Source: Novosphingobium sp. SG707 (GTDB lineage: Bacteria > Pseudomonadota > Alphaproteobacteria > Sphingomonadales > Sphingomonadaceae). From it: a stretch of 64,000 nucleotides of DNA. Shown here one piece after another: positions 58,790 through 62,603 of this stretch (within the stretch, counting starts at the first letter, position 1; the number at the start of each line of letters is the position of its first letter). The notes under the pieces are model-generated. The model was given only the letters and a program-made list of their open reading frames with translations. It was not told the DNA's origin and ran no database searches. The position numbers and the translations under genes are program-made. Location: contig NZ_JAAZQL010000003.1 of assembly GCF_012275515.1 (NCBI RefSeq), positions 626,833-690,832 on the forward strand, written 5' to 3'.

Positions 58790-58863
58790 GCGGGTGTAGC
58801 TCAATGGTAGAGCAGCAGCTTCCCAAGCTGAATACGAGGGTTCGATTCCCTTCACCCGCTCCA
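58790..58863 (+). tRNA. tRNA-Gly (anticodon CCC), integration site of an element
   Basis: The cloverleaf is complete: acceptor GCGGGTG/CACCCGC, D arm GCTC/GAGC, anticodon loop TTCCCAA (CCC, reading GGG), T arm with TTCGATT, and an encoded CCA end. The gene is intact although two integrase genes follow at once, as expected when an element restores the tRNA 3' end on integration. The core att site is then probably the last 20 or so bases. Confidence 0.95.
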
Positions 58864-58986
58864 ATTCTCGAACCAGCAGCGTTCCCGGTCACCTCCTAAA
58901 GCACAGAAAACCTGCTATATTTCGCCTTATCAGGGCCGTTGGCGTTCGCCTGCATTCCCCCGCAATCACCCGAATGTGGGGGCCCC

Positions 58987-59039
58987 GCTGGGGGTATGCA
59001 CCGCCTCGTCATAGCCGATACCCCCAACGCTGGGGGTAT
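58987..59039. repeat. Repeated GCTGGGGGTAT sites in front of integrase 1
   Basis: GCTGGGGGTAT occurs at 58987-58997 and 59029-59039, exactly 42 bp apart, and an inverted ATACCCCCA lies at 59018-59026, forming a palindrome with the second copy. The position between the tRNA (attL) and the integrase gene suits arm-type binding sites for integrase or excisionase. This role is inferred. Confidence 0.6.
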
Positions 59040-59075
59040 ATTGGGTCTAATAACCTGATAATGCGAGGAAATAAT

Positions 59076-60275
59076 ATGCTCACGGATATGGCAATTAGAA
59101 ACTTCAGGCCCGGTCCAAAGGCCACCAAGCTGGCCGATGGTGGAGGACTCTTTCTTTTGGTCACTCCGACTGGAGGCAAACTCTGGCGCTTCAAATACCG
59201 GATCGATGGGCATGAGAGGTTGCTCGCCTTGGGTAGCTATCCGCAGGTCAGTCTAGGCGAAGCTCGCGTGCGTCATGCTCAGGCTCGTGAACTCGTAGCG
59301 CGCGGAATTGATCCTTCCCGCGAAAAACAGCGGGTAACCATCTCAAAAAAGGTTGATAGTGGAGGAACGTTTCGGTCCTTATCTGAAGAGTACTGCGAGA
59401 AAAGAAAAAATAACGGTGGAGATAAGTGGGGAGATGAGACCGCAAAGAGAAATGAATATTTATTGAGTATGATTTTGGGGGTGATCGGTGACATGAGCAT
59501 TGGTGAAATCGAGCCAATCCATGTCCTCTCCGCTATCCGGAATATCGAGAGAAAGGGTAATCTGGAGAGTGCTCGTCGTACCATGCAACTTACTGGTGCT
59601 GTATTCCGTTACGGAGTGGCAACTGCCCAGGTGAAATCCGATCCGACGCGGGATTTACGCGGAGCTCTCTCCTCGCCAACGGTCATGCATCACGGAGCTC
59701 TTACGGAGCCTCGTCGTGTTGGTGAACTGTTGCGCGCGCTCGATGGGTATGAGGGCGGAGAAGTTGTCAGGATCGCCTTACAGCTTGCTCCGTATGTATT
59801 TGTCCGGCCAGGTGAGCTTCGTCATGCAATATGGAGCGAGATCGACCTGAATGAAGCTGTCTGGGTTATCCCTGCCGAGAAAACTAAAATGCGCAAGGAG
59901 CATCAGGTTCCCCTGTCCACCCAGGCGGTTGCTCGTTTCCGAGATGCGCTCAAGATTTCAGGGCCATCCGGGTATGTATTCCCTTCGGTTCGTACTCGGG
60001 AGCGCCCGATCAGCGATAATACGCTCAATGCCAGCCTGCGACGATTGGGCTATTCCAGCAACGAAATGACTGTGCATGGCTTTCGGGCCATGGCTTCAAC
60101 TTTGCTGAATGAAAGCGGCAAATGGTCTCCCGATGCTATTGAGCGTGCCCTGGCTCACGGCGACAGCGACAAAGTGCGGGCCGCTTACCACCGCGGTGCC
60201 CATTGGAAAGAACGTGTGAAGATGGCTCAGTGGTGGGGTAACTATCTTGATAAGTTGCGAAGTAAGAATTATTGA
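59076..60275 (+). CDS. P4-type tyrosine integrase (first of a tandem pair)
   Basis: This 399-aa recombinase has the N-terminal P4-integrase arm-binding domain (MAIRNFRPGPKATKLADGGG), a core-binding domain and the catalytic domain with Arg in VRPGELR, HGFRA and a nucleophile Tyr in VRAAYHRG, ten residues after the LAH motif. It catalyses insertion and excision at the tRNA. The ATG at 59076 has GCGAGGAA upstream. A paralogue follows after 193 bp. GC content and codon use are lower than in the core genes before the tRNA. Confidence 0.93.
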   Translation: MLTDMAIRNFRPGPKATKLADGGGLFLLVTPTGGKLWRFKYRIDGHERLLALGSYPQVSLGEARVRHAQARELVARGIDPSREKQRVTISKKVDSGGTFRSLSEEYCEKRKNNGGDKWGDETAKRNEYLLSMILGVIGDMSIGEIEPIHVLSAIRNIERKGNLESARRTMQLTGAVFRYGVATAQVKSDPTRDLRGALSSPTVMHHGALTEPRRVGELLRALDGYEGGEVVRIALQLAPYVFVRPGELRHAIWSEIDLNEAVWVIPAEKTKMRKEHQVPLSTQAVARFRDALKISGPSGYVFPSVRTRERPISDNTLNASLRRLGYSSNEMTVHGFRAMASTLLNESGKWSPDAIERALAHGDSDKVRAAYHRGAHWKERVKMAQWWGNYLDKLRSKNY

Positions 60276-60468
60276 GATTGTCGATTTAGAATATCCAAAA
60301 AATTCATGACTTTTGGATAAAAACCTTAAAATGTGATATGCTTTTGAAATGATGTTCGTGGTTGTTCGCCATCGTATTTTTGACGCCATCTGAATTGTGA
60401 AGGGTGGTGGAGGTGGTGCTGTTTGATTCTTGCGATGGTTGCGGAGCGCACTTCGTGGAGCATTGAAA

Positions 60469-61701
60469 ATGGCTTTGAGTGATCTTGCAATTCGTAACGC
60501 AAAAGCGCGTGAAAAATCCTATAAAATAGCTGATTCGTTGGGTCTGTTTTTGCAGGTGCAGCCGACAGGAAGTAAGCTTTGGCGCTTCAAATATCGGTTT
60601 GACGGGCGGGAGAAGAAGTTAGGATTAGGGATCTATCCTTCGGTGGGGCTCGCCGAAGCGCGCAAGCGGCGTGACCAGGCTCGTGAATTGATCGCTGCGG
60701 GCTCTGATCCCTCGCGCGAGAGGCGTCGGGAAAAGCTTCGCAGGCAGGAACTGGCCGGAAATTCATTCGCTTTGCTGGCCACTGAATATTGCAAGAAGCG
60801 TAAAGGCGATGGTCACAAGCCTTGGGCTCCTTCAACAGCCGAGCGCTGCGAGCATCTTCTGGGCTTAGTATCGGTGTCGATCGGGCGGATGGCTATTGCT
60901 GACATTGAGCCTGCAGATGTTTTGGCCGCCGTACGCAAGATTGAAAGAAAGGGAAAACTTGAAAGCGCGCGTCGCGCCTTGCAGTTGGCGGGGAGCGTGT
61001 TCAGGTTTGCCGTCGCCACCGCTCGCCTCAGATCTGATCCTACCCGTGATCTGCGTGGCGCTTTAGCATCTCCTAAGGTTACACACTACGGCGCGATCAC
61101 CGAGGCGCACAAGGTGGGCCAATTGCTACGAGATATTGACAGCTACCAAGGCATTGGAATTGCTAGGTTGGCGCTTAAAGTAGCACCTCATGTCTTTGTA
61201 AGGCCCGGTGAGCTCCGCCAAGCTCTTTGGAACGAGATTGATCTGGAGGGCGCACTTTGGGTCATACCCGCCGAAAGGATGAAAGTGCGTAAGGCTCATT
61301 ACGTGCCGCTTTCGAGGCAAGTGATTGATTTATTTAAAGATGTTCGGAGACTAAGTGGTCCAAAAGGCTATGTATTTCCGTCTGTCCGAAGCCGGGCGCG
61401 TCCCATGAGTGAAAATACGATCAACGGAGCATTGCGTCGGCTGGGCTATACCACCGATGAAATGACAGGCCACGGCTTTCGCGCAATGGCAAGTACCTTG
61501 CTCAACGAGTCCGGCAAATGGTCGCCGGACGCGATCGAGCGCGCTCTAGCGCATGGCGATGTCAGTAAAGTGCGTGCGGCCTATCACCGCGGCGCGCATT
61601 GGAATGAGCGCGTGGAGATGGCTCAATGGTGGTCCGACTACCTTGATGCCTTACGGGAGCAAAATGATTCGGCGATTTTACCTGAGCATTGGCCCAATTA
61701 G
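60469..61701 (+). CDS. P4-type tyrosine integrase (second of a tandem pair)
   Basis: This 410-aa recombinase is clearly paralogous to the one before it, with long identical runs in the catalytic part (the stretch from HGFRAMAS to RALAHGD). The Arg (VRPGELR), His/Arg (HGFRA) and Tyr (VRAAYHRG) catalytic residues are all present, so it is probably active. Its start, an ATG at 60469 after GTGGAG, gives MALSDLAIRNAKAREK. The AT-rich gap between the two genes holds an 8-bp hairpin (60293-60318). Confidence 0.93.
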   Translation: MALSDLAIRNAKAREKSYKIADSLGLFLQVQPTGSKLWRFKYRFDGREKKLGLGIYPSVGLAEARKRRDQARELIAAGSDPSRERRREKLRRQELAGNSFALLATEYCKKRKGDGHKPWAPSTAERCEHLLGLVSVSIGRMAIADIEPADVLAAVRKIERKGKLESARRALQLAGSVFRFAVATARLRSDPTRDLRGALASPKVTHYGAITEAHKVGQLLRDIDSYQGIGIARLALKVAPHVFVRPGELRQALWNEIDLEGALWVIPAERMKVRKAHYVPLSRQVIDLFKDVRRLSGPKGYVFPSVRSRARPMSENTINGALRRLGYTTDEMTGHGFRAMASTLLNESGKWSPDAIERALAHGDVSKVRAAYHRGAHWNERVEMAQWWSDYLDALREQNDSAILPEHWPN

Positions 61702-61940
61702 CTGCGATGCTGCTGGCCCCGTACCAGCAATGCTTCCAAACTGGATAGCGGGATTAGAGTAGCCCGACCGATTTTTATTATCGAAAGTTCGCCGTTGGTA
61801 ATGAGCTTGTATATTTTCGTACGTCCAAGGCCCGTCATCCGCTGGACATCGGATATACGAAGGGTGAGCGGTTTGCTAAAATCAGACGCGCAATCAGGCT
61901 GTTCAGCCAGGAGTTGACTGTTTATCATCGGATTCTTCAT
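61698..61940 (-). CDS. AlpA-like excisionase / HTH regulator
   Basis: This 80-aa protein has a MerR/AlpA-type helix-turn-helix (TLRISDVQRMTGLGRTKIYKL) and a short wing, like the AlpA proteins that activate integrase genes or act as excisionases in P4-like islands. It overlaps the second integrase 3' end by 4 bp, transcribed towards it. The start could be 61940 or, four residues in, 61928. Its role in excision is inferred from family and location. Confidence 0.8.
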   Translation of the reverse strand: MKNPMINSQLLAEQPDCASDFSKPLTLRISDVQRMTGLGRTKIYKLITNGELSIIKIGRATLIPLSSLEALLVRGQQHRS

Positions 61941-62066: not shown

Positions 62067-62603
62067 TTATGACATTTCCGCCTGCTGGGGCATCATGAGA
62101 TGCCCGATCCGGGGTGGCCACCCCGGATCGGGCGGAAGGGGATGGATCGAAGTTGTCTCGGTCGTCGAGGACCGTCGATTAGTGTGATCACCCTTCAGGC
62201 CAAGCAGCAACCGGTCGTTGCCCTGACGCGGGGCGTACACCGCCTCCTGGTCGACCAACACCGTATCGACCACGCGACACATCTCGATAAGCTGCTGCCA
62301 GTCCCGGCTGTTACGGGCAAAACGTGAGACTTCCCGTGCCGCCACCGCGCCAACCTTGCCAAGGCAGACCTCCGCCACCATCCGGTCGAAACCGATGCGC
62401 GTCACACCTCCGGCGGCTGATCGGCCAAGGTCTTCATCAATGGTCTCGATGTGTGACCATCCCAGAGTGACTAGGCGATCACGCATTGCGTATTGGAGGG
62501 CACGGCTCTCCCGGTTGTGAAGAACCTGATGGGCCGACGATTGCCGGACATACAGGATCGCTTTGCGTTCGAGATGCTGCGGGCTGATCTTCTCAAAGGT
62601 CAT
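62067..62603 (-). pseudogene. Truncated serine recombinase (resolvase-like) remnant
   Basis: Residues 1 to about 138 match the resolvase domain of large recombinase-family proteins: AILYVRQSSAHQVLHN with the catalytic Ser region, REVSRFARNSRDWQQLIE, and DRLLLGLKG. After that the frame continues into unrelated sequence, so the recombinase and zinc-ribbon parts are lost. The junction is near position 62190 and a perfect 32-bp palindrome lies 57 bp further. This looks like a deletion or insertion remnant, not a working enzyme. It overlaps the upstream small gene by 11 bp. Confidence 0.8.
62102..62133. repeat. Perfect 32-bp palindrome within the recombinase remnant
   Basis: GCCCGATCCGGGGTGG is followed at once by its exact reverse complement. 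It sits within the out-of-register 3' part of the truncated recombinase frame. A perfect palindrome this long suggests an element end, a fusion of two inverted ends, or a recombinase/replication site. Confidence 0.85.

Follow-up and report, generated by a model that had tools for sequence, protein, structure and literature searches.

Paired P4-type integrases at tRNA-Gly(ccc) in Novosphingobium sp. SG707: a probable old composite element seen at its left end

Introduction

In Novosphingobium sp. SG707, two P4-type integrase genes, int1 and int2, stand one behind the other at a single tRNA gene, and this arrangement raises the question of how one locus came to hold two such enzymes. A first-pass annotation of the DNA had offered three answers: a two-integrase system, a composite in which two islands had stacked and the inner tRNA copy had disappeared, or a recent duplication. 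Two full-length, constrained integrases at one att pair would provide a test of what a second recombinase contributes to staying, leaving and cargo exchange, while if only one of them works, the locus is no more than what the stacking of islands commonly leaves behind.

Layout of the locus and the two integrase genes

The window, meaning the whole 64,000-nt stretch of DNA that was analysed, is contig C3:626833-690832 of the SG707 genome (5.64 Mb, 41 contigs). Its sole tRNA gene, located with ARAGORN, is a tRNA-Gly(ccc) with an encoded CCA at 58790-58863 on the plus strand. This gene is the integration target, and it is identical over 74 nt in Novosphingobium sp. SG751A and in Novosphingobium sediminicola DSM 27057, the closest named match to int2. 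The 23-bp attL core lies at 58844-58866 (plus strand) and is followed by a region at 58867-59075 that leads up to int1. The first integrase gene, int1, occupies 59076-60275 on the plus strand and encodes 399 amino acids (open reading frame 58974-60275, likely start ATG 59076), and int2, also on the plus strand, occupies 60469-61701 and encodes 410 amino acids (open reading frame 60430-61701, likely start ATG 60469). The 193 nt between the int1 stop and the int2 ATG, a spacing that the first-pass annotation had given correctly, comprise a divergent 5′ part at 60276-60350, with 69.3% identity to N. sediminicola, and a conserved, non-coding leader of int2 at 60351-60468. Convergent with int2, on the minus strand at 61698-61940, is a gene for a small AlpA/HTH_17-like protein (PF12728, 1.9e-9; the match to AlpA PF05930, at 5.6e-4, is slightly below the cut-off). 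Its counterpart at the same place in N. sediminicola shares 72.5% amino acid identity, and the protein is a candidate excisionase or regulator.

Both INT1 and INT2 exceeded the Pfam cut-offs for Arm-DNA-bind_3, Phage_int_M and Phage_integrase, and both carry strings with R, K, HxxR, H and Y, which we take to be the catalytic residues. Judged by sequence, then, each is a P4-type tyrosine integrase with arm, central and catalytic domains and the catalytic motifs. The two genes are intact and neither is a pseudogene, in agreement with what had been noted of their catalytic residues. Just inside the island, at 62067-62603 on the minus strand, there is also a short, remnant-like serine-recombinase frame of 178 amino acids with a Resolvase N-terminal domain. 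Elsewhere in the genome, further integrases of the INT1/INT2 family are found at C3:159929-161113 (minus strand), at a tRNA-Gly(tcc), and at C8:3154-4329 (minus strand), at a tRNA-Val.

The right end and the extent of the island

The first-pass annotation had proposed a search for a second att copy, and such a copy of the tRNA 3′ end does exist, though on another contig; neither of the outcomes named there as refuting, a missing att copy or a pseudogene, was observed. When the tRNA region was used as query, a 23-bp exact copy of 58844-58866 was found at C19:4278-4300, on the minus strand, beside pckA. Genome-wide, a 15-base pattern occurs exactly only at the tRNA and on C19, with a one-mismatch occurrence at a tRNA-Gly on C4. 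Between 684,000 and 783,999 of C3, the other exact matches of at least 12 bases to the tRNA region are two of 12 bases only, and the last 10.6 kb of C3 has no exact match of at least 12 bases. Read in the direction of the tRNA, C19 presents the island side, the att copy, ugd and pckA. The SG751A left flank matches that of SG707 at 87% identity across 3.4 kb (tRNA and beginning of int1 included). A pckA gene (92% identical to that of C19) lies about 11 kb from this flank on the same contig, such that a single-integrase island is placed between tRNA-Gly(ccc) and pckA; near this pckA, the match to the att core is 11 bp only. In N. sediminicola, a 21-bp att copy is present on the pckA contig (C8:254355-254375), and about 160 bp inside it resembles the C19 right end at 76-77%. 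Because pckA lies past the same tRNA in SG751A and the att copy of N. sediminicola is on its pckA contig, we take the C19 copy as attR, and contig C19 most likely carries the attR of the tRNA-Gly(ccc) locus. The ugd-like gene of C19 (L027:2890-4056) lies between the att copy and pckA; in its place N. sediminicola has a different reading frame and SG751A has no gene, as if older insertions had left pieces behind.

An integrase beside a tRNA and a direct repeat of the tRNA 3′ end beside pckA mark the locus as a tRNA-targeted island, although the two lie on separate contigs, C3 and C19. Should the stretch of C3 that begins at the tRNA and the stretch of C19 that begins at the att copy, each taken to the contig end, make up one island, which presumes this order of contigs, its length is at least about 134 kb. 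The C3 part holds F-type conjugation genes, among them one for a TraC-type T4SS ATPase (Pfam), and a stretch that is 76% identical to plasmid DNA annotated as TraH and TraF. For self-transmission as an ICE, a relaxase would have to lie in the element along with a T4SS; TrwC relaxases, the one relaxase family searched, were found only on contigs C26 and C11. A plasmid search returned 34 records with partial matches, the best coverage being 21%. A search with the right end matched 68 of 194 genomes, where the sole other long match was that of N. sediminicola; nearly all the other matches listed were of about 20-37 bases and came from the outermost part of the query, which by its position reads as an IS end, or from the att core. 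The 30 GNAT loci viewed, of about 3.4 kb each (50 of 79 genomes had a match), gave no empty site: two of them hold tRNA-Gly(ccc), those of SG707 and SG751A, and none holds pckA. As for the SG751A island (L210:2819-13990), its reading frames, viewed without a domain search, include an apparent primase-like protein and ATPase or nuclease-like genes, and this island of about 11 kb seems to resemble a satellite or defence island.

Distribution of the pair and its conservation in N. sediminicola

The pair is rare. Among 80 relatives of int2, viewed with up to 10 kb of flank, a second full integrase adjoins in one, that of N. sediminicola, where the order int1-int2-alpA is the same; one further locus (L086) has a partial integrase match about 3.5 kb downstream. 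A tRNA-Gly lies just upstream of 49 of these relatives, another tRNA upstream of 28, and none was found for three. Within the genus, 127 of 195 genomes contain a relative of int1 (E 1e-100), and among the matches listed two integrases stand side by side only in SG707 and N. sediminicola. A wider scan of the order, with int2 as query, gave matches at 1e-140 in 46 of 396 genomes; among the matches listed, which do not include N. sediminicola, the pair was seen only in SG707. Adjacency in both scans was judged by eye, with at most nine (genus) or four (order) candidates scored per genome.

Against N. sediminicola, dN/dS is 0.16 for int1 (bootstrap 0.10-0.24) and 0.04 for int2 (0.02-0.06), with 0.05-0.15 for four flanking genes. 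These substitution patterns indicate that both integrases are under purifying selection, and neither looks to be decaying. In a comparison of 62 rows, 172 columns are conserved among the 58 single-integrase rows; INT1 departs from this pattern at 14 of them and INT2 at 6, while two of the single-integrase rows depart at 17. The dS of int1, 0.36, is at the top of the range of the four flanking genes (0.12-0.36), which leaves room for separate acquisition. Along int2, dS rises by thirds from start to end (0.38, 0.76, 1.38) and is 0.87 for alpA, and the identity to N. sediminicola drops in parallel, being 95% near the beginning of int2 and 72% in alpA and the stretch immediately after it. On the simplest reading of this one genome pair, int1 and int2 were joined at roughly the time when the species split, and probably before it, and the right part of int2, along with alpA, was replaced afterwards in one of the two by exchange with a related island. 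The rising divergence within int2 suggests that integrase genes can act as crossover points for swaps of cargo.

Regions upstream of the two integrases

The regions in front of int1 and int2 differ in kind. The attL-to-int1 region is typical of the family: it scored 69 bits (E 6e-21) against an HMM built from 47 attL regions of relatives, and 58864-59075 is 92.9% identical in N. sediminicola. An inverted repeat, ATACCCCC..GGGGGTAT, can be read from the sequence at 59018-59039, before int1. Direct and inverted copies of a motif, GGGGGTAT or GGGGGCCA, are also seen (partly by eye) before the integrases of relatives, with the variant differing by island; these copies may be arm or operator sites. 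The region upstream of int2 scored -2.4 bits against the same HMM, and its N. sediminicola counterpart 2.0 bits, equal to the best random window. An attL relic before int2, which a resemblance by eye had suggested, was rejected on these scores, and since the region fails the HMM, a former attL of int2 is unsupported. No tRNA 3′ end was found in the int1-int2 gap, where alignments to the tRNA end were no better than those of shuffles, and exact-match, pattern and alignment searches returned no copy of the att core between the genes.

The 118-bp leader of int2, which carries short direct repeats, is 94.9% identical between the species, compared with 89.0% for the int1 gene and 86.6% for the int2 gene. 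It was found in two of 194 genomes of the genus, both with the integrase pair (at most four candidates were scored per genome). An RNA element was considered and dropped, as the leader gave no fold signal (z-score 0.62), and the leader is probably a promoter or a protein-binding site. A promoter scan returned no plus-strand site before int1 or int2, and a terminator scan no terminator-like plus-strand site between them; the counts in both were at or below those of shuffles, which makes both scans uninformative.

Origin of the paired integrases

The explanation that we favour, at a probability of about 0.6, is that the locus forms one end, the left, of an old composite element integrated at tRNA-Gly(ccc), an element that arose by stacking and has since been deprived of its inner att site. 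A pair of elements carrying one P4-type integrase apiece would have stacked at this one site, and a deletion would then have removed cargo and the inner att, leaving int1 and int2 head to tail. INT1, which lies next to the tRNA and has the usual attL region, would most likely carry out recombination between attL, at the tRNA, and the attR of C19, and INT2 may be a second or cross-acting recombinase, a back-up, or an enzyme acting on a site of its own. A composite has an att copy between its elements, and here there is no inner copy, hence the locus could only be a reduced composite; the missing copy fits this and the other readings alike and does not discriminate between them. No strain was seen in which int1 and int2 are still separated by cargo.

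The evidence from trees favours separate origins of int1 and int2. We inferred a FastTree phylogeny from 97 proteins (96 distinct), leaving out two short frame reads (L089, L119) and 14 of the 28 loci L122-L149, and ran IQ-TREE twice, on 47 and 63 of the 96 proteins, hand-chosen and mostly without far or long-branched rows. INT1 groups with the SG751A integrase (0.74 in FastTree; 95/83 and 99/89 in IQ-TREE), and INT2 stands apart from INT1 in all three trees. The neighbours of INT2 vary, being L085, at a tRNA-Thr, in FastTree and the 47-row tree, and L074 (66/29) in the 63-row tree. Long-branch effects may be at work, since the paired lineages have long stems (0.58 and 0.92 for int1, 0.41 and 0.71 for int2). 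Of the three readings first annotated, stacked islands with a lost inner tRNA copy fit best, in view of the separate trees, the 49 of 80 relatives at tRNA-Gly and the lack of an inner core, but the comparison of trees that had been recommended came out divided, as an AU test did not reject trees that hold INT1 and INT2 together (p 0.104 on 47 rows and 0.065 on 63).

The best-surviving alternative, though an unlikely one, is a module in which INT1 and INT2 split the work, as integration versus excision or by acting jointly at a single att pair; the AlpA-like protein would set directionality and the 118-bp leader would serve for regulation or recombinase binding. What keeps it in contention is conservation in a second species: both integrases are intact and constrained there, and the leader, although non-coding, is more conserved than either gene. 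The scan without a terminator-like site between the genes also agrees with it, and GInts, by the available account, need three integrases (PMC5385486). Against it, the pair occurs in two genomes only, the relatives listed have single genes, and in ICEKp2 of Klebsiella pneumoniae, which has two integrase genes, only one of them was needed for excision: in the part of the report available, no excision was seen once int2a was missing, whereas the absence of int2b still allowed it (PMC6761156). A fuller version, in which non-sister integrases, a constrained 118-bp element and an AlpA-like factor stay together across species and give one tRNA two recombinase roles, while cargo turns over by recombination inside int2, is about as unlikely.

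Next in line, and likewise improbable, is that a single integrase gene was duplicated in tandem in the distant past and that the copies have diverged ever since. The head-to-tail order is what such an event would leave, the AU test did not reject the one-clade trees, and the SG751A integrase is almost as close to INT2 (70%) as to INT1 (71%). However, INT1 and INT2 are apart in three trees, a single clade for the four genes of the two species costs 27.4 and 23.9 log units, and the identity of INT1 to INT2, 63% over 397 amino acids, is lower than that of each to several single integrases. Much weaker is the notion that int2 is a passive relic heading for decay, for which the missing family-type attL region would speak; int2 is intact in both species with a dN/dS of 0.04 and a conserved leader, and the promoter scan is neutral, having found no site before either gene. 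Finally, a recent duplication or gene conversion of the integrase can be dismissed: the long identical runs noted at first hold at the protein level (one of 30 residues), but the longest repeated DNA block, of 291 nt, is merely 72% identical and synonymous sites are saturated (int1-int2 dS = 3.9 in N. sediminicola, not computable for the SG707 pair), so the runs reflect conservation of the family, not recent copying.

Relation to known systems

For the reduced composite that we favour, precedents are in print. Tandem accretion is defined, with CGI48 as an example of a composite island, in the available text of PMC8978831, and asn-tDNA groups III and XI of K. pneumoniae are described as composite islands formed by tandem accretion, the two integrases of group XI being just 74% identical (PMC4891358, as far as its text was available). 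The asn-tDNA composites and CGI48 resemble the SG707 locus in that two islands are joined at one tRNA locus; in the asn-tDNA composites, as described, each integrase heads its own island, whereas in SG707 neither cargo nor att stands between the genes, whose spacing is 193 nt. ICEKp2 likewise has two integrase genes in one element, but from its description, rather than from a sequence comparison, it is a PAPI-family element of another bacterial class. Single-integrase P4-type islands at tRNA-Gly in Sphingomonadales, such as that of SG751A, share the tRNA, left flank, integrase family and attL layout of int1, but the SG751A island has one integrase in about 11 kb, as opposed to two in SG707. 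In light of ICEKp2, the unlike integrases of composite islands and tandem accretion, the kind is already known, and the head-to-tail pair with a conserved leader, common to two species, is a variant of known composites. In the open-licence literature on paired integrases, tandem accretion and sphingomonad islands, no report of the int1-int2 pair was present among the matches listed, nor was a paper found on genomic islands of N. sediminicola.

Several tyrosine recombinases in a row are also a trait of the GInts (ginABCD; PMC5385486), which as described have three integrases per operon, while SG707 has two P4-type genes at a tRNA. The same holds for recombinase-in-trio elements, which in the descriptions available carry three tyrosine recombinases in series in place of two P4-type genes at a tRNA. 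In SG707 itself, contigs C29 and C30 (3.8 kb each) both hold three successive tyrosine recombinase matches, all with the same orientation, in the manner of a recombinase-in-trio, and contig C16 shows two tyrosine recombinase matches.
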